Assembly: GCA_001799995.1 (NCBI GenBank)
Contig: MGUK01000013.1
Coordinates: 1 to 38,484 of the forward strand
DNA: 38,484 nt
From: Elusimicrobia bacterium GWF2_62_30
GTDB taxonomy: Bacteria > Elusimicrobiota > Elusimicrobia > Elusimicrobiales > UBA9959
Direction of reading: 5' to 3'
Numbering within the stretch: position 1 is the first letter of the stretch; each line of letters opens with the position of its first letter. The position numbers and the translations under genes were made by a program. The notes under the pieces are model-generated. The model was not told where the DNA came from and searched no databases. It saw nothing but the letters and a program-made list of their open reading frames with translations. Shown here one piece after another: positions 25,069 through 38,200 of this stretch.

Positions 25069-25590
25069 TCACCAGCGGCGGACGCGGCCAAGGTCCACGT
25101 GGATGAAATCCGAGCCGGGGTAGTAGCCCACCCCGCCGCCGCGCAGCGCCAGCGCCGTGTCGCGCAGGCGGGAGGTCCGTACTCCGGGAACGCGGATATC
25201 GATGGCTTTCGCCTGCATATGCAGGCTGTTGCCGGCGACGCCCGAGCCGCGGGTGCGGAGCCGCCGGTTGCTCTCGGGAGTGCGGTAGCCGCAGATAACC
25301 TGCAGCTCGGTTCCGGGCCGGTCTACCCTGGAGGCAAGTTCGTCGAGCAGGTCGAAGAGCCGCGGATCATGGTGTTTGACCCTGTCCGTCCGCCAGTCGC
25401 GGAGGAAATGGTCTAGTTTTTCCAGCGCCTGCGGATCGTAGACGCCGTCCCGGCTGTAAACTACGTCGAGACGCTCAAGGGTGTGGGTGTTGAACAGCCG
25501 CAAACGGCCTTCCCGCGGCGCCTGCTGAGGCACGGAGGCGAAAGAGCAGGATACCAGGAGAGCGACCAGTAGAAGGTGTCTCATGTTCAT
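25069..25590 (-). CDS. MepK/YcbK-like M15 endopeptidase (DUF882), probable lipoprotein
   Basis: A 173-residue zinc peptidase. The family ligand pattern is intact: His124 and Asp131 in SLHMQAKAID, and His164 in FIHVDLG, with GYRTPESN before them. E. coli MepK cleaves 3-3 crosslinks in peptidoglycan. Residues 12-15 (LVSC) fit a lipobox, so the mature protein may be lipid-anchored at Cys15, unlike the soluble E. coli enzyme. Two in-frame ATGs occur at 25590 and 25584, and either may start the protein. It converges on the L,D-transpeptidase gene, the counterpart that makes the bond it would cut. In E. coli the two genes are also neighbours. Confidence 0.88.
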   Translation of the reverse strand: MNMRHLLLVALLVSCSFASVPQQAPREGRLRLFNTHTLERLDVVYSRDGVYDPQALEKLDHFLRDWRTDRVKHHDPRLFDLLDELASRVDRPGTELQVICGYRTPESNRRLRTRGSGVAGNSLHMQAKAIDIRVPGVRTSRLRDTALALRGGGVGYYPGSDFIHVDLGRVRRW

Positions 25591-26123: not shown

Positions 26124-27245
26124 TTACTCCTTTTTCTCCGTCAGGTCCTTCAAGAGCCTGCTTTCCAGCGCCACGGACTTTTCCAGGTTTTTGTGGACCT
26201 GCTCGACAAGGGCGTTGAATTTTTCGGCGTTCAGCGGGCTCCCGCCGTACCTGGCGTCGGAGGCGGCCATCAAAGCCACAAGTTCTTTGACCGAATCGTT
26301 AAGCGACTCGGCTCCTTCGCTGAAGTCCAGCGCCGCGTTGTAGGCGCCGCGCTCGAGCTCGGAAGCTTTATCCGGTTTTTTCAGCAGCAGCCAGGGCTGC
26401 CAGCGCACCTGGCGGGTTACCGCCTTGAGGTTGGCGGAAGCTTTTTCCGCATTGGCAAAAGTGCGGATGAGCGGGTCCCGGCTTTTCAGCATCACTTTGT
26501 CGGCGTTCTCCCCGGTCCGTGCCAGCGACCCGGAGGCGGCGTGTAAATTGACCAGGGTGCCGGCGATCCGGTCCTTGTTTCCCGCGAGGACGGTGTTCAT
26601 CGTGCCCGAGGCCTGCTCGAGGTTCTTTACGCTGTTGACGATGCCCGATTCCGCGGCGGGGATGGACCGGTTGAGCGAGGCCATCACGGACCGGGCCAGT
26701 TCGCTGGTCTCCTTGAGATTTACCACGGCCGCGTGGGCCGCGCCCGCCAGCTCTTTATCCGCCAGCAGCGCGACAAAATCATCTATGCGCCGCACAATGG
26801 TCCCGGCCGTCTTGGCCAGTTCGGTAAGGGCAACGGGTTCGAGCCCGGTTATTTTCTCCCCAGGCGCCAGCTTCTCCGCGGCGCGCCCGGGCACTACCGT
26901 AAGCACCGTGATGCCGGTCAGCGTGCGGTCCACGGCGACGCCGGTATCTTTGGCGAACGCCTCCGCGTAGGTCACCCTGGCGGTCACCTCCACCGCCGCG
27001 GCCCGGCGGCCCGCCGCGTCCGTGAAATGGGTCACCTCTATGCCTGTTACCTTCCCGAGGTCCAGGCCCATTACCCGGACAGGGTCCTCTACCTGCAGGC
27101 CCTGGACGTCGGTGAACAGGATGCGCAGGGTCTGCTTCTTTTTGAAGGCCGCGCTCCAGTTCCCGGAGGCGACCAGTATCAGGCCCCCCAGGAAAAGCGC
27201 CCCCAGGATGACCGCCCCGGCCTTGATCTCAGATCGCGTTATCAT
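26124..27245 (-). CDS. mlaD: MlaD-like MCE-domain lipid-binding protein
   Basis: A 373-residue protein with one N-terminal membrane anchor (about 9-28, AGAVILGALFLGGLILVASG). An MCE domain follows at about 38-120 (LRILFTDVQGLQVEDPVRVMGLDLGKVTGI, given in part as VMGLDLGKVTGI). MCE rings carry lipids between membranes. E. coli MlaD has 183 residues; here a roughly 230-residue C-terminal helical region follows, rich in Ala/Leu heptads, which could extend into a tunnel as in longer MCE proteins. It is the last gene of the operon, 21 bases after mlaF. No separate MlaC or MlaA gene is seen in the window. Confidence 0.88.
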   Translation of the reverse strand: MITRSEIKAGAVILGALFLGGLILVASGNWSAAFKKKQTLRILFTDVQGLQVEDPVRVMGLDLGKVTGIEVTHFTDAAGRRAAAVEVTARVTYAEAFAKDTGVAVDRTLTGITVLTVVPGRAAEKLAPGEKITGLEPVALTELAKTAGTIVRRIDDFVALLADKELAGAAHAAVVNLKETSELARSVMASLNRSIPAAESGIVNSVKNLEQASGTMNTVLAGNKDRIAGTLVNLHAASGSLARTGENADKVMLKSRDPLIRTFANAEKASANLKAVTRQVRWQPWLLLKKPDKASELERGAYNAALDFSEGAESLNDSVKELVALMAASDARYGGSPLNAEKFNALVEQVHKNLEKSVALESRLLKDLTEKKE

Positions 27246-27266
27246 ATTCTCTCCTCTGAACTCAGG

Positions 27267-28088
27267 CTAAAATCGCTCCAGGAAGGGTTCAAGCAGGTCC
27301 TGCGCATAATCCTTTCTCGATACCCGCAGCGGGATAGGACCGTCCGCCAGGCCGTTTATGAACTGCTGCACCAGGGGGTCTTTGGAAGCGCGGATCTCGG
27401 CCGGCGTTCCCACCGCCACGGCGCGGCCCCGAAAAAGCAGGATCATCCGGTGGGCGATCTTGAAGGCGCTGCCCATGTCGTGGGTCACTACTATCGAGGT
27501 CACGCCGGTCTTTATGTTCAGGTCCATCATCAGCTCGTCGATCATGGCGCTGGCGATGGGGTCAAGCCCGGCCGAAGGCTCGTCGTAGAACATTATCCGC
27601 GGGTCCAGCGCCATGGCGCGCGCCAGGCCCACGCGCTTTTTCATGCCCCCGCTGATCTCGGCGGGCTTAAGATGCTCGAAGTCCCTTAAACCGACCATTT
27701 CCAGTTTCATTTTGACCATGATCCCTATCACGTCCGGCGAAAGCCTGGTATGCTCTTTAAGCGGCAGGGCGATGTTCTCTCCCACCGTCAGCGAGTTGAA
27801 GAGCGCGCCCGACTGGAAGAGGATACCGGTCTTCTTGCGAAGAGCGTCCAGCTCCTCTTCGTCGAGCCGCGCAATGTCCGTTCCCAGCATCTCGATGATC
27901 CCGGACGTGGGGCGCATCGCGCCGATAAGGAGGCGCAGCAGCGTAGACTTGCCGCAGCCGCTGCCGCCCATGATGACGAGGATCTCGCCTTTATTGACAT
28001 AGAAGTTGAGATCGTCGAGAACTACCTGGTCCCCGAATTTCTTGACCAGGTTCCTGACTACGATCGGCTTCTGCTGTTCTTCGCTCAT
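27267..28088 (-). CDS. mlaF: MlaF-like ABC transporter ATPase
   Basis: A 273-residue ATPase, close to E. coli MlaF (269). Walker A GGSGCGKST spans residues 41-49. The signature ISGGMKKR lies at 145-152, Walker B IMFYDE at 165-170 with catalytic Glu170, and switch His203 in VTHD. The stretch after the signature (VGLARAMALDPRIMFYDEP) is typical of Mla/Ttg2A ATPases. It lies four bases after mlaE and powers the MlaE permease. All catalytic residues are present. Confidence 0.93.
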   Translation of the reverse strand: MSEEQQKPIVVRNLVKKFGDQVVLDDLNFYVNKGEILVIMGGSGCGKSTLLRLLIGAMRPTSGIIEMLGTDIARLDEEELDALRKKTGILFQSGALFNSLTVGENIALPLKEHTRLSPDVIGIMVKMKLEMVGLRDFEHLKPAEISGGMKKRVGLARAMALDPRIMFYDEPSAGLDPIASAMIDELMMDLNIKTGVTSIVVTHDMGSAFKIAHRMILLFRGRAVAVGTPAEIRASKDPLVQQFINGLADGPIPLRVSRKDYAQDLLEPFLERF

Positions 28089-28092
28089 AAAT

Positions 28093-28899
28093 TCAGCGCC
28101 CCAGGATTATCCGGAATACCGCGGCGAACAAACAGTCCGCGGAGATGATCATCACGATAGAGTACACGACGGAGCGAGTGGCCGCCTTGCCTACTCCCTC
28201 GGCCCCCGAGTCGACACGCAGGCCCTCGAAGCAGGCGATGAGGGCGATCAGGATCGCGAAAACCCAGCTCTTGAAGATGCCGACGGCCACGTCCGAGGTG
28301 ACCAGCGTTTCAAGCATCTTCTGGACGAAGAGGTCCGGTGTGATGTGCAGGACGGTCCAGGCGATGCCCATCCCTCCAAGGACGCCTACAAAGTCCCCTA
28401 TCATGGTAACGCAGGGGATCATCAGCGCCGCCGCGATAACCCGCGGGACCACCAGGTAGCGGACCGGTGAGATAGCGAGGGCGCGCAGCGCCTCTATCTC
28501 CTCGCTTACGGCCATCGTGCCCAGCTCGGCCGACATCGCCGCTCCGGCGTAGCCGGCCATGATCATAGCGGTCATAAGCGGCCCCAGCTCCCGGAAGATG
28601 CCCAGCCCGACCACGCTTCCCACGTATTCCTTGATGCCGAATCTCTGGAGGAGGTTGGCCAGCTGCAGGGCTATCACTACGCCGATAAATAACTGCACCA
28701 GGCAGACTATCCCGAGGCTGGAGAAGCCGACGCGCACCATCTGCTCGAGGACCGGGGCGCCGCGGACCCGGAGCTTGCGCCTGTCGAAAGGCGCGATAAA
28801 AATGAACGAGAGCGTATCGGCGAACAGCCAGCCCATCCCGCCGATATAGCGGAGCCCCGAGTAGAACCTGGCGCCCAGTTCTCCCGCTATGTGCTCCAT
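28093..28899 (-). CDS. mlaE: MlaE-like ABC permease
   Basis: A 268-residue polytopic protein of the MlaE/YrbE family (E. coli 260). Typical stretches are LVQLFIGVVIALQLANLLQRFG, IFRELGPLMTAMIMAGYAGAAMSAELGTM (the family core) and EEIEALRALAISPVRYLVVPR. It forms the membrane dimer on which MlaD sits. It starts three bases after the STAS gene stop, so translation is coupled to it. Confidence 0.93.
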   Translation of the reverse strand: MEHIAGELGARFYSGLRYIGGMGWLFADTLSFIFIAPFDRRKLRVRGAPVLEQMVRVGFSSLGIVCLVQLFIGVVIALQLANLLQRFGIKEYVGSVVGLGIFRELGPLMTAMIMAGYAGAAMSAELGTMAVSEEIEALRALAISPVRYLVVPRVIAAALMIPCVTMIGDFVGVLGGMGIAWTVLHITPDLFVQKMLETLVTSDVAVGIFKSWVFAILIALIACFEGLRVDSGAEGVGKAATRSVVYSIVMIISADCLFAAVFRIILGR

Positions 28900-28902
28900 G
28901 GC

Positions 28903-29247
28903 CTATGCTCCCAGCGCTTCGCGGCGCGTGGCCGCGAGCCTGAAGAATTTATCCAGCCTGGCCAGCGCGAAGACGTCACGCACTTTGTCGTTCATGCCCG
29001 CCAGGATGAGCTCTACTCCGGCGGCTTTGGCCAGCTTCATGGCCTCGACCAGCGTGGCCACCCCCGAGCTGTCTATGAACGTTACCCCCGCCAGGTCCAC
29101 GACCACGGCCGCCGGCCTGAACGCTATGGAGTCTATCAGCGCTTTGCGCAGCCTGGGCGATTCGTGCATGTCCACTTCCCCGTCCGTAGAGATCACGACC
29201 GTGCGGCCCAGCCTGCTGTTTTCCAGGACTTCGGTTTTTATCTGCAT
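28903..29247 (-). CDS. STAS-domain protein: MlaB-position anti-sigma-antagonist-like switch
   Basis: A 114-residue single STAS domain, starting two bases after the upstream stop and ending three bases before mlaE. The motif GVTFIDSSGVATLV gives Asp59, Ser60 and Ser61. Ser60 aligns with phospho-acceptor Ser58 of SpoIIAA. In E. coli, MlaB is a STAS protein that binds MlaF and is needed for transport. The position here fits MlaB, while the intact serine and the adjacent phosphatase/kinase gene fit a phosphorylated antagonist. Both could be true. A longer frame reaching 29763 exists but only overlaps the upstream gene and is not the start. Confidence 0.87.
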   Translation of the reverse strand: MQIKTEVLENSRLGRTVVISTDGEVDMHESPRLRKALIDSIAFRPAAVVVDLAGVTFIDSSGVATLVEAMKLAKAAGVELILAGMNDKVRDVFALARLDKFFRLAATRREALGA

Positions 29248-29249
29248 AG

Positions 29250-30905
29250 CTATTTTTTCCCTTTCCCGCGGACCAGCATATGAAGCTCGTTCCCGTCCCA
29301 GAGCTTGTCGTCGAACTCCACCACGTCCATTACCTCGCGGATATACCTGACCCCGAGCCCGCCCGGGCGGATGTCGGCAAGATCGCGCGAGACGAAGCGC
29401 CCGGGATCCTGCCTGTCGCCCCAGTCGCGGAGGTGCAGCGCGAATTGCTCCGGGCCCCGGCCGACGCCTATGCGGATCTTCTCGTCGGGGTTCATGCGGT
29501 AGGTGTGCCTGATTATGTTGGACACGGCCTCGGTGAGCGCCAGCAGGATGGCCCCGGTAGTCCTGTCGTTTAACCCGTGCGCCAGCGCCAGCTTTTCCAC
29601 GAACTGCCGGGCCGGGGCCAGGGACTTGGTCTGCGACGGGAAGGTGCGTTCCTCGTAATCCCCGTAGCCTACCCCCACCACGGTAATGTCGTCGGCCAGG
29701 GCCTGCCCGGCGGTAAACCGGGTGATGGCCTTCATGAGCCTGGGCACCGCCAGCTCGGGGCAATCCGCCAGGATCTCCCGGACCTTCTCCGGACCGAGCC
29801 GCGCGCCGGCCGGAGACTTGGCGTCCCAGGCGCCGTCCGTCATAAAAATTATCCGTTCCCCGGGAGCCAGCGCGAGGCTGGTGCTTTTGTACCGCAGCCC
29901 GTCCAGCACGCCGAGGGGCGGGTACTCCGGAGCGCCCGCAGGGCGGCAGTCGCCGGGACGCGGGCCGACGATGAGGGGGGGGAGGTGTCCCGCGTTGACG
30001 AACTCCACGGCGCCGGTGGCGGGGTCGATCACGGCATAAACGGCGGTGATGAAGATACCCCGTTTCGAGCGTCTTGTGACGATAGCGTTCAACCGGCCCA
30101 GGAGCGCGCCGCCTTCGGGGTCGGCCTGGGCGAGATGCTCGAAATCGGCGGAAAATTTAGCCCCGAAGAGCGCCGCCGGCACGCCTTTGCCGGAGACGTC
30201 GGCCACCAGCACGGCCAGCCTTCCGTCGGCAAGCCTTGTTATATCGACAACGTCGCCGGCCACATAGCGGCAGGCTATGCTGCGGCATTCTACGCGCAGG
30301 TTAGGGATGGACGGGATATCGGAGGGCAGGGAAGCGCTCTGGATCTGTTCCGCTATCTCCATATCGTGCGTGATGCGGTCCTGGTCTATCGCGTTCTTTT
30401 TGAGGAGCGCGTTGTCTATGGCGCTGGCGGCGATGTCGCAATACCGGGTGAAGAGTTCCTGGTCGCCCGGAGTAAAGGAAGCCCCGTCTTTTTTGTTGAT
30501 GAGTTCGGCCACGCCGATAAGCCGGTCTTTGGCGACAAGCGGCAGGCAAAGCACGCTTTTTGTCAGGAAACCGGCTTTTTTGTCGAAACCGGAAAAGAAC
30601 CGGGGGTCCTTATAGGCGTCTTCGACGAGCAGCGCCCTGCGGTGTTTGGCCACCCACCCGGCCAGGCCGGCGCCGAGCTTGAGGCGCTGCCGGTCCCCGC
30701 CCGGCGCCCTGGTCCTGCCCAGTATGACTTCGTAGACCAGCTCGCCGGAAGCCGCGTCGAACGTCATGATATCGGAGGCCCCGGCCTGCAGCACGTCCCC
30801 GGCCTTTTCCAGCACCCGGGTCAGGACGGCTTCAAGGTCCAGCGTGGAGGTGAGCAGGGCATAAACGTCAAGCAGCTTTTCAAGGTCCTTGGTCTTAATA
30901 GCCAT
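29250..30905 (-). CDS. GAF - PP2C (RsbU/SpoIIE) - HATPase (RsbW-like) switch protein
   Basis: A 551-residue cytoplasmic protein using the ATG at 30905; a longer 39-residue basic extension has no support. A GAF sensor domain spans about 15-175. A PP2C/SpoIIE serine phosphatase spans about 185-410, with metal-site aspartates in VADVSGKGVPAALF, MTDGAWDA and ADDITVVGVG. An anti-sigma-type GHKL ATPase spans about 425-550, with N-box ALTEAVSNIIRH, LRDWGDR and GGLGVRYI. Thus a phosphatase and a kinase for a STAS partner lie in one chain, and the next gene encodes a STAS protein two bases on. No sigma factor is nearby. The receiver-DHp gene ends 28 bases upstream. Confidence 0.88.
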   Translation of the reverse strand: MAIKTKDLEKLLDVYALLTSTLDLEAVLTRVLEKAGDVLQAGASDIMTFDAASGELVYEVILGRTRAPGGDRQRLKLGAGLAGWVAKHRRALLVEDAYKDPRFFSGFDKKAGFLTKSVLCLPLVAKDRLIGVAELINKKDGASFTPGDQELFTRYCDIAASAIDNALLKKNAIDQDRITHDMEIAEQIQSASLPSDIPSIPNLRVECRSIACRYVAGDVVDITRLADGRLAVLVADVSGKGVPAALFGAKFSADFEHLAQADPEGGALLGRLNAIVTRRSKRGIFITAVYAVIDPATGAVEFVNAGHLPPLIVGPRPGDCRPAGAPEYPPLGVLDGLRYKSTSLALAPGERIIFMTDGAWDAKSPAGARLGPEKVREILADCPELAVPRLMKAITRFTAGQALADDITVVGVGYGDYEERTFPSQTKSLAPARQFVEKLALAHGLNDRTTGAILLALTEAVSNIIRHTYRMNPDEKIRIGVGRGPEQFALHLRDWGDRQDPGRFVSRDLADIRPGGLGVRYIREVMDVVEFDDKLWDGNELHMLVRGKGKK

Positions 30906-30933
30906 AGTTCTGCCGCCGCGGAACGTACTGCGG

Positions 30934-31650
30934 TTAATAATTTTCCGCCGGGGGGCGCGCCGCGGTCTCGTCCGGTGCCGGGCCTTTCGCCGGCTTCCCT
31001 TCTTCCAGACTGCTTTTGGCAAGGACCGTGCCGACCATGTGGACGAGCTGTTTCGCGGTCTTCATGGCTTCGGCAAGGCTGCGGGCCGATTCGCCCTGGA
31101 GCGAGGCGCCCTCTTTTGCTTTGATGAGTTCCAGATAGCCGCAGATGCCGGTCAGCGGCGGGCGAAGGTCGTGCAGGAGCATGTCCACCAGGCTGTCGCG
31201 CAGTTTTTTCAGCTCGCCCAGCTCGTTATAGTTTTCCTGCAGCCGGAGTTTCTGCCGGCGCAGCTCCAGGTGCGTCTCAACGCGCGCCTCCACTTCCTCG
31301 AACTGGAACGGCTTGGTGATGTAATCGACGCCGCCGGTCCCGAAGGCTTTCACTTTGTCGATGGTTTCGCTCAGGGCGCTCAGGAAAATTACTGGGATAT
31401 CCTTCAGTCTTTCGTCGGCCTTCAGCTGCGTGCAGACCTCGTAGCCGTCCATCCCCGGCATGCTGATGTCGAGAAGGATAAGGTCGGGCGGATCGTTGCG
31501 GGCGGCCTGCAGCGCAAGTTCGCCGCTGACGGCGGCGCGCACCTTGTAGCCCCGCCCCTTCAGCATGCCGGTAAGCAGCTCGAGGTTCTCGGGGGTGTCG
31601 TCCACCATCAGGACGCTGGGCGTGCTTCGGGGATAAATCGGTTCCTTCAT
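30934..31650 (-). CDS. Receiver-DHp protein lacking the kinase ATPase domain
   Basis: A 238-residue protein from the ATG at 31650, chosen because the paralogue at 32669 starts at the same point; a TTG at 31692 would add 14 residues. The receiver has phospho-acceptor Asp61 (LILLDISMP) and Lys113. A coiled linker leads to a HisKA (DHp) helix with His160 in LLHDLRPPLTG. The protein ends soon after the DHp bundle in a disordered Pro/Ala/Glu tail. No ATP-binding domain follows, whereas the 383-residue paralogue has one. It therefore cannot phosphorylate itself, but could be phosphorylated by another kinase or act as a phosphatase or a scaffold. It is the first gene of the operon leading to mlaEFD. 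Confidence 0.85.
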   Translation of the reverse strand: MKEPIYPRSTPSVLMVDDTPENLELLTGMLKGRGYKVRAAVSGELALQAARNDPPDLILLDISMPGMDGYEVCTQLKADERLKDIPVIFLSALSETIDKVKAFGTGGVDYITKPFQFEEVEARVETHLELRRQKLRLQENYNELGELKKLRDSLVDMLLHDLRPPLTGICGYLELIKAKEGASLQGESARSLAEAMKTAKQLVHMVGTVLAKSSLEEGKPAKGPAPDETAARPPAENY

Positions 31651-31783
31651 ATCCGGATCCCAACCTCCAGGTTCAAATCTGTCCGCGGACAAAGGGCTTC
31701 AGTTCCAGCCTTGAGACGGACCAGGCGGAACTTGCCCCTGTGTTCTTTAATAGGATACTTCCCAGGGCCTTTGGCGGCAATTA

Positions 31784-32668: not shown

Positions 32669-33820
32669 CTAAGGCTGGTCCGGCGCCGCCTGCGCGGGGC
32701 CGTTCACCGGCAGCTCGAACCAGAAGGCGCTTCCCTTGCCCTCTTCGCTGTCTGCCCCGATGCGCCCGCCGTGCGCTTCCACCGCCAGCTTGCAGAAGGT
32801 AAGGCCCATGCCCGCGGAGTATCTCTGGTTGCCGGCGCGGAGTTCGCTCTGCGCGGACTTGCTGAATATTTTCTGCTTATACTCCGGCGCAATGCCCAGC
32901 CCGTTGTCCTTTACGCTTACGCGGACCAGGTCGCCGGCGGGCTCGATGGCCAGCAGGATGAGGTCGCCGTCCCGCGTGAATTTCAGCGCGTTGGACAGGA
33001 GGTTCTGGATGACCCTGAGGATCAGTTCGCGGTCAGCCAGCACCGTTACCGGGCTTGCCGGCGGGGTGAGCCGGATCTCGCGCCTCCCGGAGAGAGGCTT
33101 CACTCCCGAGATCCCGTCTTCCAGGATGCGGCCCAGATCGCATACCGCCGTTTTCAGCTTCATCCGGCCCTCTTCCAGCTTGCTCGCCTCCAGGGTATCG
33201 CAGGCCATCTGGATCATCTGCATAACCGCCTTCATGGCTTCTGCGACGTAGCTGGAATGGACCGCTGAAAGCGTGTGGTCCGTGTTGTCCCTGATGAGCT
33301 TGAGGTAGGCGAAGGTGCCTGTCAGCGGGGAGCGGAGGTCGTGTATGATCATCTGCACAAGAGAGTCGCGCAAATTTTCCAGCTCGCGCAGCTTGTCGTA
33401 GGCCTCCTGCAGCCGGCGTTTCTGCCTGCGCAGTTCCAGGTGGGTCTCGACGCGCGCCTCCACTTCCTCAAGCTGGAACGGCTTGGTGATGTAGTCCACG
33501 CCCCCGGTGCCGAAGGCCTTTACCTTGTCCATCGTTTCGTTGAGGGCGCTCAGGAAAATAACGGGTATGTCCTTGAGCTTGTCGTCGGCTTTCAGCTCCG
33601 CGCACACCTCGAAGCCGTTCATCACGGGCATATTGATGTCCAGAAGTATAAGGTCGGGCGGATCGCTGCGGACGGCCTGCAGCGCGAACTTCCCGCTGAG
33701 GGCCGCGCGCACCTTGTAGCCGCGGTTTTTCAGCATCTCGGCCAGCAGCGCCAGGTTCGCCGGCATATCGTCCACCATGAGGATCGTTGACGGGTTATTG
33801 CTGTTGATGGGTTCGTTCAT
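32669..33820 (-). CDS. Hybrid receiver-histidine kinase
   Basis: A 383-residue cytoplasmic protein. The N-terminal receiver has Asp61 (LILLDINMP) and Lys113 (TKPF). A coiled linker joins it to a HisKA domain with His160 in IIHDLRSPLTG. A complete HATPase_c domain follows, with N-box NLLSNALKFT, G1 VKDNGLGIAP and G2 GMGLTFCKLAVEAHGG. There is no transmembrane or other sensor, so the input is probably phosphorylation of the receiver. Asp61 and His160 lie at the same positions as in the truncated paralogue at 30934. It lies 44 bases after the adenylate cyclase gene, likely in the same operon. Confidence 0.92.
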   Translation of the reverse strand: MNEPINSNNPSTILMVDDMPANLALLAEMLKNRGYKVRAALSGKFALQAVRSDPPDLILLDINMPVMNGFEVCAELKADDKLKDIPVIFLSALNETMDKVKAFGTGGVDYITKPFQLEEVEARVETHLELRRQKRRLQEAYDKLRELENLRDSLVQMIIHDLRSPLTGTFAYLKLIRDNTDHTLSAVHSSYVAEAMKAVMQMIQMACDTLEASKLEEGRMKLKTAVCDLGRILEDGISGVKPLSGRREIRLTPPASPVTVLADRELILRVIQNLLSNALKFTRDGDLILLAIEPAGDLVRVSVKDNGLGIAPEYKQKIFSKSAQSELRAGNQRYSAGMGLTFCKLAVEAHGGRIGADSEEGKGSAFWFELPVNGPAQAAPDQP

Positions 33821-33864: not shown

Positions 33865-35253
33865 CTATGCCCGGCTGTCTGTTCTAGGGCCTAGAACCTG
33901 GTAAATATGCACGGTTTCTTTGCGGCCCCGTACCGGCTTCTCTCCTATATCCTTGAATTCAAAATGCTCTTTGGTCGCCGCGTAAACAGGCTGGCTCACT
34001 ATCAGGTCGGTGCCGTACTCTTTGTTGCCCGCTTCCATCCGGGAGGTAACGTTCACGGCGTCGCCGATAACCGTGTACTGGACCTTCTCCTGGCTGCCGA
34101 TATTGCCGGCTACGGCCTTGCCCGAATGGATGGCGATGCCGATCGCGATAGGCTTGCGGCCTTCCTTCACCAGGGTCTCGTTGAGCGCGACCAGGCGGGC
34201 CTTCATGTCCAAAGCCGCGCTGACCGCCAGTTTCTCGTGGTCAAGGGTATACACGGGCCAGCCGAAAACGGCCAGGATGGCGTCCCCGATGAACTTGTCC
34301 ACGGTTCCGCTGTGCGCCCCGATGGCGTGTACCATTTCCGTGAAATAGCGGTTCAATAAATTGACCACTTCCTGGGGAGGCAGCTTTTCGGAAAACTCAG
34401 TGAACCCCCGGATATCGGACATAAGCACCGTCATTTCTTTCAGCTCCCCGCCGCCGAGCTCCATGGACACTTTCCCGTTCAGGAAGCCGTCCACCACTTC
34501 TTTGGACATGTAGCGCCCGAATGTGCTGCGGATCATTTCCTTCTCGCGCAGGCTGAGGACCATCTGGTTAAAGGCCTGCGTCAGCTGCCCTATTTCATCC
34601 GTCGTGGAAAAACTGATCTGCATGTCCAGGCGGCCCTCTCCCACGTCGCGCGCCGCCTTCGCCAGCACGGGCAGCGGCCGCAGCATCCACCCGACTATAA
34701 TGATCGTGCCGAGCATGTCCAGTATGACCGCTATACCGGCTACTACCAGCACCTGTCTCTTGGCGTCCCTCAGGCTGCTGGCCACGGAAGCCCTCGTGGA
34801 GCCGATATGCACGGTTCCCGTCCTGCGGTTGCCGGAGAATACCGGCGCCGAAATGTCGAAATAGGAAACGCCATGGCTGGTATATTGCTGGACAAGCGCG
34901 TCCTTGGACCCCGAGGCTATCCGGGCGATCGTGCTATTGTCGATGCCGCCTATCTTCTGCGGGTCCGTATGGGACAGGACCTTGCTGCCGGCGTCCAGTA
35001 TGCCGGCGTATTCCACGCCCTTTTCCTTCAGCATTTCGTGCGTGTTGAAATGAAGGGTAAAAGTGTCGAGCTGGGGGGAAATGGCCTCTCCCGCCGAGCG
35101 GGCGTAGGCGATAGACCGGAGCTTCATCTCCGTGGTCATCAGCTGCTCGCCCTGCTGCAGCAGGATCCAGGTCATCGCCGCGATGATCGCCAGCACGAAG
35201 AGCGAGGCGAATAGGGAGAGCTTTAACGCGATCTTGTTTATTTTATGTAGCAT
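33865..35253 (-). CDS. Membrane class III adenylate cyclase (sensor - HAMP - cyclase)
   Basis: A 462-residue protein from the ATG at 35253; a TTG at 35262, overlapping the previous stop, would add three residues. Two membrane segments (about 8-32 and 167-190) flank a periplasmic sensor of about 130 residues. A HAMP linker follows, then a class III cyclase domain (about 260-450). Metal-binding aspartates are in LMSDIRGFTEFSE and DKFIGDAILAVFG. The adenine-pocket Lys/Thr pair fits DKFIG and QYTVIGDAVNVTSRME, where Thr replaces Asp as in class IIIb. The product is predicted to be cAMP. Coupling to a surface-protein gene suggests that it senses envelope or external conditions; the ligand is unknown. 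Confidence 0.9.
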   Translation of the reverse strand: MLHKINKIALKLSLFASLFVLAIIAAMTWILLQQGEQLMTTEMKLRSIAYARSAGEAISPQLDTFTLHFNTHEMLKEKGVEYAGILDAGSKVLSHTDPQKIGGIDNSTIARIASGSKDALVQQYTSHGVSYFDISAPVFSGNRRTGTVHIGSTRASVASSLRDAKRQVLVVAGIAVILDMLGTIIIVGWMLRPLPVLAKAARDVGEGRLDMQISFSTTDEIGQLTQAFNQMVLSLREKEMIRSTFGRYMSKEVVDGFLNGKVSMELGGGELKEMTVLMSDIRGFTEFSEKLPPQEVVNLLNRYFTEMVHAIGAHSGTVDKFIGDAILAVFGWPVYTLDHEKLAVSAALDMKARLVALNETLVKEGRKPIAIGIAIHSGKAVAGNIGSQEKVQYTVIGDAVNVTSRMEAGNKEYGTDLIVSQPVYAATKEHFEFKDIGEKPVRGRKETVHIYQVLGPRTDSRA

Positions 35254-35258
35254 AATTT

Positions 35259-38200
35259 TCAATAGAGTACCGCTAATTTGAATTGCTGCCGTTCCGTTTT
35301 GCCCGCATACTTCTTTTCAATGATGCACACGTAGCCGCCCGGCGCCGTAATTTTTCCCGTGCCGCTGCGTCCGGCCCAGGGCCAGACCTTATTGCCCGCC
35401 GAACCTTCACCGCGTGTTTCTTCATACACCAGGTTCCCCTCAAGGGTAAATAGTTTTAAAGTCACTTTCGCAGGGGCTTTCAGGTAAAAACCTATCTGGG
35501 TCGGCCCGGCCAGGGGATCGAACGGGTTGGGCCAGTTATACGGCTGGACCATGGGGGGTTCCTGACTCAGGGACCAGACCGGGATGCCCGGGCCGGGATC
35601 CGAATAATCGCTGACCCCTCCCGCATTGTTTTCCGCCCGCACCCGGGCGAAAACGGTCTTGCCGCTGGGGAGCCCGGTCTCCAGGGAGGAAAGCGCCAGG
35701 CCCATGTTTTTAGCGTTGAAGATATCATTCCCATTGACGGTAGTTCCAAGGTCCAGCAGGTACGCTTTGATCCCGCTTTCCTGGTCCGCGGACGCGGACC
35801 AGGAGAACAGCGCGGCGGAATCGTAGGAGAATTCGCGGTCTGACTGCACGGCCACGAGGCGGGCTGGCGCGGTGCGGTCCACCAGCACTCCGGGACTGGA
35901 GACGGCGGAGTGTTGGCTGAAGATCCCGCCTTCGTCGATAGCCTTGACCTTCAGGTAATAGGTCTTGCCGTTGGCCGCCGGGTCCAGGGTGAAGCTTGCC
36001 AGCGGGCCGATCTCGGAATCGACCAGCACATTAAAATCGGCCGGCGTCGTGCCTACGGACACTACATAGGTGGAAATAGTGGTGTCGCCGAAGGCCAGGG
36101 CGGGCGGCCAGTTCCAGGTGATCCCCGAGGTGGCGGTGAAGGCTCCCGGCACCGGGACGGGCTGGCCCGGGGGCATTACCGTGCTTAAGGCCACGTGGAA
36201 GGGCCCGATGTCGGCCGTCTTGTAGCCTAGCGCATTGAAGTTGTAGCTGCGCAGGTGGAGGAACCAGAAGCCGTTGCCTGTGGCGGTGGTCGTCAGGACC
36301 GCCAGGGCGGTCCAGCCCGGTTCCTGATCGTTCCAGGCATGAGTGGCGTCCCTGTCCCAGACGGTACGGTAGAACACCAGGCCTCCCGTCCCGGTGGAGA
36401 CCGTGTTTACGAAACTGAAGGTGGTCACGCTGACCGGGCCCGTTGTGGTGCTGGCCGAGACGGCCGGCGCGGCCGCGTAGGTGAGTTCGCCGCCGAGCTC
36501 CAGGTCCGCGGTCGGTCTGCCGTTGTGGTTGCGCGCGCGCACGCGGGCGTAATAAGTCGTGTTCGCAGCCAGGGCGAAATTCCCGCTCACGCCCGCGGCG
36601 GCGGCGCTGGCCCACAGCACCGCGAAGTCGGACCGCGTGGAGACTTCCGTCTCGTACATCGTCCCGGAGGGATTGTCGCCCGCTGACCAGCGTACTGTCA
36701 GGCCGTTGTCGGTCAAGGTGAAGGAGGAAACCACGGACTGCGGGGGAACGGCCAAGGTGGCGGTGGACACGAAAGTATCGGCATATGGCCCCGCGCTCCC
36801 CGAGAAGTTTATTGCCCTGACCCTGGCCGTATAAGTAGTATTCGGGGTCAGGCCCGTGAAAGCGGCCGGGATGTTCAGGGTGGTTGAGGAGAGCGAAACG
36901 CTCACGAAGTTATCTTTGGAGATCTCGGCCAAATAGGTAGTGTTCTGCGGGTTGCCGTTGGCCGTCCAGTTGAACGCGAGGCCCGAACTGGTCACCCCGC
37001 TGAAAGGCGCGGCCGCAAGGGCGGGGGGCAGGGGCAAAGTGACCGCCGCTACGGCCGGCGAGTAACCGCCCGGCACATTGTCCATGTTCACCGCCCTGGC
37101 GCGGCCGTAATAGGTGGTGTTGGGCAGCAGGCCGCCGAAGGTCTGGCTGAGGGCCAGGGTCGAGGCCGAGGATATAGCCGTGCCGGGGGCGAAGCCCGCG
37201 CTTGACAGCTCGACGGTGTAGGAGGTTCCTCCGGGATTGCCGCCGGAAGCCCAGGTGAAGGTGAGGGTGCTGGCCGAGACCGCGGTGAACGGCTGGGCCG
37301 CGTTGAGCGGGTCGGTGACCAGGGTGGTCGTAGAACGGACCGGGCTGGAGTAGGGGCCGTCCAGGCCCAGGAAGTTAATGGCCTTTACGCGCGCCTGGTG
37401 GACGGTATTTGGCGTCAGGGCGGAGAAAACCGTGCTATTGGACAGCGTGGAAGCGGAAGCGATAAGAGTGTCGAAGTTGTTCCTGGAGAGCTCGGCCGCG
37501 TAGCGCGTATTGAGCGGGTTGCCGCCATCGCTCCAAGTGAAGGTAAAGCTGTTCGTGCTGATGGTTATGAAAGGCGCGGCGGAGACAGCGGGGGGCAAAG
37601 TATATGTAACCGTGGAGACGGCACCTGTGTAGGCGGTGTAATTGCCGCCGGCCCCGACGGCACGGACATGGGCGTAATAGGTGGTATTGGCCGACAGGCC
37701 CGTGAGAACGTAACTCAGGTTGGTCGTGACGTCCGAAGAGACCGGGGCGGAGAAGCTGCTGTTTGTGGAGACCTCCAGGTTGTAGCCGGTCCCGGCGGCA
37801 TTGCCGCCGTCGCCCCAGGCGAAGGTAAGCCCTCCGGCGGAGAGGTTCAGGAAAGGCGCCGCGACATTGACGGGCGCCGAGCCGGCGGTGGCGGTGGAAA
37901 CTATTGGCGAGGAAAACTGGCCGGGGATGCCGGCGAAGTTGACGGCCCGGACCCGCGCCTGGTAGACCGTGTTGGCCGTAAGCGCGGAGAACACCGCGCC
38001 CAGGGCGCTGGTCAGGGCGGCGCTGGACACGCTGACAAACCCGTCTTTGGAGATCTCCGCCGTGTAGAGCGTCCCTCCCGGGTTGCCGCCGTTCTCCCAG
38101 CTGAAAGTGAAGCTCCCGGCAAAGACCCCCGTGAACGGCGGGTCGGCGGTAACTGGTGATAGCGTCAGCGTCACCGTAGACACTACGGGGCTGGAATAGG

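Follow-up and report, generated by a model that had tools for sequence, protein, structure and literature searches.

The window analyzed here, a 38,484-nucleotide stretch of contig MGUK01000013.1 from Elusimicrobia bacterium GWF2_62_30, contains six adjoining genes on the minus strand (positions 26124-31650) that place the domains of a bacterial partner switch in one operon with those of an Mla-type lipid transporter. In coding order, the first gene (30934-31650) encodes a receiver followed by a truncated DHp domain without ATPase (Pfam Response_reg and HisKA, no HATPase) and is treated below as an accessory input gene; it starts at an ATG, and a TTG further upstream at 31692 is likewise open. 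The second (29250-30905) encodes a 551-amino-acid protein joining a GAF domain (residues 23-163), a PP2C phosphatase of the SpoIIE/RsbU type (227-411) and a GHKL domain of the RsbW type (422-543). It is followed by a single-domain STAS protein of 114 amino acids (28903-29247; PF01740 and TIGR00377 over cut-off), RsbV/SpoIIAA-like and standing at the place of MlaB, and then by the transporter genes: an MlaE permease of 268 amino acids (28093-28899; PF02405, 250 bits; TIGR00056, 220.2 bits against a cut-off of 212.2), an MlaF ATPase of 273 amino acids (27267-28088), whose best solved relatives are Pseudomonas aeruginosa MlaF, an ATP-binding cassette (ABC) ATPase of 7d06/6z5u and Escherichia coli MlaF, and an MlaD (MCE) protein of 373 amino acids with a long C-terminal part (26124-27245; PF02470 at residues 37-117, 33.1 bits against 25.1). 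The intergenic gaps of 28, 2, 3, 4 and 21 bases, like the gene order and strand, had been given in an initial annotation made from the sequence alone and proved exact on re-reading, and its domain assignments were borne out by Pfam, where every domain (Response_reg and HisKA; GAF, SpoIIE and HATPase_c_2; STAS; MlaE; ABC_tran; MlaD) scored over its cut-off.

MlaE was searched in 61 genomes and then in 340 genomes of the phylum. The MlaE of this module, at least 64% identical to that of the window, was found in eight of the 340 genomes, and the next match by E-value was 40% identical. Seven carriers are among the 32 genomes of the same genus, namely the window's own genome (G000; a 2.91 Mb assembly, 84% complete), G018 (given as 100% complete), G027, G026, G002, G003 and G024, and the eighth, G230, belongs to another family of the class. 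The gene order reported initially is conserved in these relatives for a five-gene core, GAF-PP2C-GHKL, STAS, MlaE, MlaF and MlaD, with order and strand constant in all eight carriers; a search with the PP2C-GHKL protein alone (E <= 1e-60) returned exactly the same eight of the 340 genomes. The junction between the PP2C-GHKL and STAS genes ranges in all eight from an overlap of 17 bases to a gap of 2 bases (the alignment of G024 begins one codon late). Since the operon flanks differ in G026, G024 and G230, the core has been conserved as one block, and the five-gene arrangement is more than chance. Other MlaE genes are common in the phylum, with at least one match in 60 of the 61 genomes and, at E <= 1e-40, in 288 of the 340. 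Profiles of the module STAS and PP2C-GHKL proteins matched none of 53 other MlaE/MlaF loci at E <= 0.01, the second copy in the window's own genome (L042) included, most of these loci being taken with about 1.5 kb of flank on each side, and the control matched three of three module loci. A single-protein scan of genome contigs, which detects close relatives only, gave five loci, matching G018, G027, G026, G002 and G003. All tblastn matches on plasmids were below 60% identity, and six were opened out of 356 and 402 records.

RsbU-RsbV-RsbW and SpoIIE-SpoIIAA-SpoIIAB are partner switches composed of a PP2C phosphatase, a GHKL kinase and a STAS substrate with a D-S-S-G motif, the phosphorylated serine of SpoIIAA being Ser58. 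The Elusimicrobiota module too has a PP2C domain, a GHKL domain and a STAS protein with D-S-S-G, but it fuses phosphatase and kinase in one chain and is followed by a lipid ABC transporter, and a SigB/F/G sigma factor was rejected as the target of its STAS circuit, none scoring over the TIGR02980 cut-off in any of the eight carrier genomes. The stretches GDV[VIL]D, [AG]DVSGKGVPAAL, TDG and LADDIT, and EAxxN, RDWG and GGLG, which we take to be the PP2C and GHKL catalytic motifs, were retained in all seven aligned copies, the copy of G002 being omitted from the alignment owing to an internal deletion. In G000, G018, G026, G024 and G027, the module holds the sole RsbU-type PP2C that covers most of the model, and the same is true of G002, whose copy bears the deletion; two weak extra PP2C matches that were scanned (G000 and G018) fit ordinary PP2C families better.

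Across the eight copies, 53 positions of the STAS protein are invariant, D59 and S60-A69 among them. Its expected phospho-acceptor is Ser60 in the sequence IDSSG (codon AGC, 29070-29068, minus strand), and the initial proposal that this acceptor has been kept stands, as the serine is invariant in the eight module proteins and aligns with Thr52 of E. coli MlaB. It opens helix 2 (residues 60-76) in a structure model of the protein, with a predicted local distance difference test score (pLDDT) of 87.9. Thr52 has itself been mapped onto the phosphorylated serine of SpoIIAA (PMC7367683; PMC5016091; these and the papers below are cited from the portions of their text available to us).

The MlaF protein offers a second link between STAS and transporter. 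E. coli MlaB docks on the helical subdomain of one MlaF, and Tyr261, Leu265 and Leu266 in a C-terminal extension of the second MlaF clamp it; in a crystal structure Thr52 lies close to the center of this interface, and the phosphomimetic T52E weakens MlaF binding (PMC7367683). The initial annotation had placed weight on where Ser60 lies relative to MlaF, and its alignment with Thr52 would put it near that center. Residues 261-266 of the window's MlaF (YAQDLL; 27291-27308, minus strand) equal the E. coli tail at the three clamping positions, a pattern that all 8 module copies show at the same positions and that is absent from the 40 other MlaF compared from the phylum (Fisher p 2.7e-9, treating relatives as independent). 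Six of 46 other MlaF frames had been dropped from this comparison, three as unreliable or cut frames (L019, L025 and L091) and three as diverged ATPases (L039, L040 and L041); before they were dropped the pattern was found in 0/46. Identity to E. coli MlaF was 0.48 for module copies versus 0.34 for the others in the helical subdomain (bounded from Q-loop to signature, our choice), 0.45 versus 0.05 in the tail and 0.39 versus 0.35 elsewhere, and sites common to E. coli and the module that the other MlaF do not share made up 14 of 67 positions in helical subdomain and tail versus 12 of 202 elsewhere (Fisher p 0.0008). Tail and STAS, the latter encoded as a single domain together with mlaE, mlaF and mlaD in every carrier, are retained together while the module proteins have diverged to 59-64% identity. 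By analogy with E. coli, the module STAS is predicted to dock on MlaF.

MlaE proteins with a fused N-terminal STAS domain, such as MpcE (PMC12436622) and those of six proteobacterial plasmid loci (STAS over the Pfam cut-off in 6/6), resemble the module in tying STAS to an MlaE/MlaF transporter, but there STAS lies within the permease chain, the annotation shows no PP2C-GHKL gene next to it, and the MlaF tail is absent in the five examined; Methylomagnum L112, whose annotated ATPase gene is short, was omitted from this comparison. The tail was accordingly rejected as a rule for fused STAS too, and because the five MlaF beside fused STAS lack it, it goes with free STAS on this small set. A second type of MlaE, of 363-372 amino acids with an N-terminal extension of about 150, was observed in seven genomes of family f2 (L101-L107), and was rejected as a carrier of a STAS domain after no Pfam STAS match was obtained in the two loci scanned of the seven.

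The reading we favor, with a probability of roughly 60%, is a self-contained partner switch in which the STAS subunit of the Mla transporter is the substrate of the co-encoded kinase and phosphatase and MlaF is the output. For the fuller claim, that a closed, sigma-free switch gates the ABC lipid transporter post-translationally, with phosphorylation of Ser60 moving STAS between kinase and MlaF, we consider the odds about even. In the favored reading, the operon would encode an MCE/Mla-type phospholipid ABC transporter with an auxiliary STAS subunit, which when unphosphorylated would set its helical face on MlaF, be gripped by the MlaF C-terminal tail and be required for the assembled, active transporter. 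The GHKL domain would compete for that same face of STAS and phosphorylate Ser60, leaving phospho-STAS unable to sit on MlaF and the transporter idle, and the PP2C domain, under control of GAF and, in most carriers, perhaps of the receiver-DHp protein too, would strip the phosphate and restore transport. STAS would swap partners between the kinase and the ABC ATPase, the latter taking the position that a sigma factor occupies in classical partner switches. We infer the kinase and phosphatase activities on Ser60, the binding of STAS to MlaF, the gating and its direction, and the signals. MlaC (PF05494) was found in two of the eight carrier genomes (G018 and G026), outside the operon; it was found neither in the window's genome, at 84% completeness, nor in any operon copy. 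Transport therefore probably proceeds without the shuttle of E. coli, and the length of MlaD may let it reach further across the periplasm.

Likeness of the STAS protein to MlaB, assumed in the initial annotation, is supported by its placement with mlaE, mlaF and mlaD and by a partner MlaF with an MlaB-clamping tail, but sequence model and fold are nearer to SpoIIAA and RsbV. The protein passes TIGR00377, the anti-sigma factor antagonist superfamily (75.9 bits, cut-off 53.45). Its model has a short strand at 103-105 and a helix at 108-111, unlike E. coli MlaB, whose minimal STAS fold has four strands and lacks both the fifth strand and the final helix (PMC7367683). MlaB orthology was rejected because the protein scores under the NCBIfam cut-off and its model ranks closer to other folds, as given below, and a match of the window's STAS to E. 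coli MlaB at NDKV was not used because Asn86 varies inside the module. Compared with E. coli MlaFEDB (PMC7367683; PMC5016091), the module likewise combines MlaE, MlaF and MlaD with a free STAS protein, has identical MlaF tail positions and carries its acceptor site in the same place; it differs in gene order (STAS-E-F-D against F-E-D-C-B), in having no MlaC in the operon, in its RsbV-like STAS and in encoding kinase and phosphatase in the operon.

Several results weigh against the proposed switch. The STAS protein fails the NCBIfam MlaB equivalog NF033618 (30.9 bits against a cut-off of 90), and the nearest solved folds of its model are SpoIIAA, RsbV and TM1442, E. coli MlaB appearing first at rank 25 (TM 0.51). 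The helical-subdomain enrichment of MlaF taken by itself is marginal (p 0.045), and the tail drives the combined result. The module MlaF group separately from the other 40 as a single clade (support 100/97); tail and STAS may accordingly have been inherited jointly, and the eight copies do not count as independent. E. coli MlaF joins this clade weakly (88/37, on a long branch). The carriers number only eight, five of them with named records, all metagenome-assembled genomes (MAGs). In G002 (L036, 7193-8890) the PP2C domain has an internal deletion with the frame still open, which may be a real loss or a fault of MAG assembly. Additional STAS and PP2C genes are present in G003 and G230, and G027 has a STAS-FHA protein (L131, G027:C223:2601-2894), a fusion that pairs a phosphorylatable type of domain with a phosphopeptide-binding one. 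The window's genome also holds an RpoS-like sigma factor (L068), whose best NCBIfam match is RpoS at 240 against a cut-off of 394, hence below it. Finally, E. coli MlaB T52A leaves the complex intact and abolishes ATPase activity (PMC7367683; PMC5016091); simple on/off docking would not have predicted this, and the residue may matter for catalysis as well.

The chief rival to the switch acting on MlaF is a circuit like that of HsbR and CrsR, in which the GHKL domain would sequester an RpoS-like (or extracytoplasmic function, ECF) sigma factor, STAS would be its antagonist and the mla genes would merely be co-transcribed. HsbR and CrsR reportedly contain PP2C and GHKL domains, in the order receiver-PP2C-GHKL, and thus resemble the module protein in joining these two activities; no N-terminal receiver is fused to the latter, and a GAF domain is fused instead. 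Like the module, HsbR-HsbA and CrsR-CrsA include a free STAS protein, but in the module GAF is the built-in sensor and the receiver is a separate gene, beside the core in six of eight carriers, and the output of the known systems is FlgM/RpoS (PMC6482189). This circuit ranks first among the rivals because RpoS is an interaction partner of HsbR and CrsR; in addition, their STAS partner HsbA, in its unphosphorylated form, binds FlgM (PMC6482189). The RsbV/SpoIIAA-like STAS fold would suit it, as would the sigma factors of the window's genome, which are one RpoD-like, the RpoS-like L068 and ten further matches of ECF size. However, it leaves unexplained why mlaE, mlaF and mlaD follow in all eight carriers and why MlaF has the MlaB-clamping tail, and no SigB/F/G sigma passed the cut-off. 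Within the genus, 29 of the 32 genomes gave a mark for the RpoS-like locus, 22 of the 25 module-free ones included, so it seems not to track the module; this evidence is indirect, as the query lay in a shadow frame, and in the six carriers compared its places agree with those from the SigB/F/G search. The claim that the system works without a sigma factor is consequently supported for the SigB/F/G kind and is weakened by the RpoS-like protein and the precedent of HsbR and CrsR (PMC6482189). On balance we regard the sigma-directed circuit as unlikely.

It is slightly less probable again that STAS is a constitutive structural subunit of the MlaB type, with the PP2C-GHKL protein regulating something else or being a mere co-inherited neighbor. 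E. coli MlaB has an acceptor-like threonine and, as far as the available text of the papers goes, no known kinase (PMC7367683; PMC5016091), and five proteobacterial fused-STAS MlaE keep threonine at the acceptor position with no PP2C or GHKL gene annotated nearby in an incomplete gene table. In the module, by contrast, a serine in D-S-S-G is the acceptor, the PP2C-GHKL protein retains its kinase and phosphatase stretches, and the genes overlap or abut; moreover, in five of the eight carriers (G000, G018, G026, G002 and G024) the search gave this enzyme no alternative single-domain STAS to act on, the module protein being the sole STAS found outside SulP permeases. A dual output, in which free STAS would activate MlaF and also free GHKL to control a sigma factor or other target, coupling transport to transcription, fits the same gene anatomy, the RpoS-like sigma and the precedent of HsbA as one STAS with two partners (PMC6482189), but nothing at the locus points to a second target, and we consider it the most doubtful of the three.

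The receiver-DHp gene was part of the switch in the initial annotation, and this part did not hold. It precedes the core in six of eight carriers, running off the contig in G027, with no copy at this place in G024 and G230; in two of the six copies the H-box histidine is replaced, by arginine in G002 and by asparagine in G003. It was therefore not counted as a conserved part, and an essential role in a phosphorelay was rejected. Further upstream, outside the conserved core, lies a gene for a receiver-DHp-HATPase histidine kinase (32669-33820, minus strand; domains by Pfam), a paralogue of the receiver-DHp gene by alignment, which was matched beside the operon in G018, G002 and G003 and is a possible upstream signal source for it. 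This kinase gene is adjoined by one for a Cache-HAMP adenylate/guanylate cyclase (33865-35262), also matched there in G018 and G002; besides this cyclase gene in the window, six carrier genomes have SulP permeases that carry STAS and a C-terminal cyclic-nucleotide-binding domain (L043, 2844-5078 of G000:C88; L124-L127; L130). Beyond the cyclase gene, an open reading frame of 974 amino acids (35259-38183) has six fibronectin type III stretches and, near its end, a FlgD Ig-like match below cut-off. On the other side, a DUF882/M15 peptidase gene (25069-25590) follows mlaD in the same orientation in six of the eight carriers (the window's own genome, G018, G027, G026, G002 and G003), still beside the operon in G026 where the flanks otherwise differ, and a plus-strand receiver gene stands between it and mlaD in the window's own genome, G027 and G003.

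The initial interpretation as a whole is thus partly supported, by the conserved gene order, by Ser60, by the MlaF tail and by the lack of SigB/F/G factors over cut-off, and loses ground on MlaB likeness and on the receiver-DHp gene as a conserved component. Its statement that it knew of no described system with such control of Mla agrees with the open-access literature, in the portions available (most subscription papers and all preprints lying outside), where we met neither an Mla partner switch nor a kinase or phosphatase assigned to the STAS subunit of an Mla system; a text search of the accessible part of a review of STAS-only proteins gave no mention of Mla, ABC transport or lipid. Phosphorylation of MlaB has already been proposed in both E. 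coli papers, which name no kinase in the text available (PMC7367683; PMC5016091). A parallel in kind is SypE-SypA of Vibrio fischeri, where phosphorylation of the STAS protein is controlled by SypE and the action lies below transcription, but the module co-encodes a candidate target, MlaF, whereas that of SypA is given as unknown in the available text (PMC10120452).

The operon supplies a candidate kinase, phosphatase and substrate, and makes the open question of MlaB regulation testable with purified proteins. If the proposed switch is real, a target would be identified for a switch of the SypA kind, and partner switching, known mainly for sigma factors, would extend to the post-translational control of an ABC transporter. 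Lipid transport in these uncultured bacteria would then be switched on and off directly, through phosphorylation of a protein and not through changes in gene expression.

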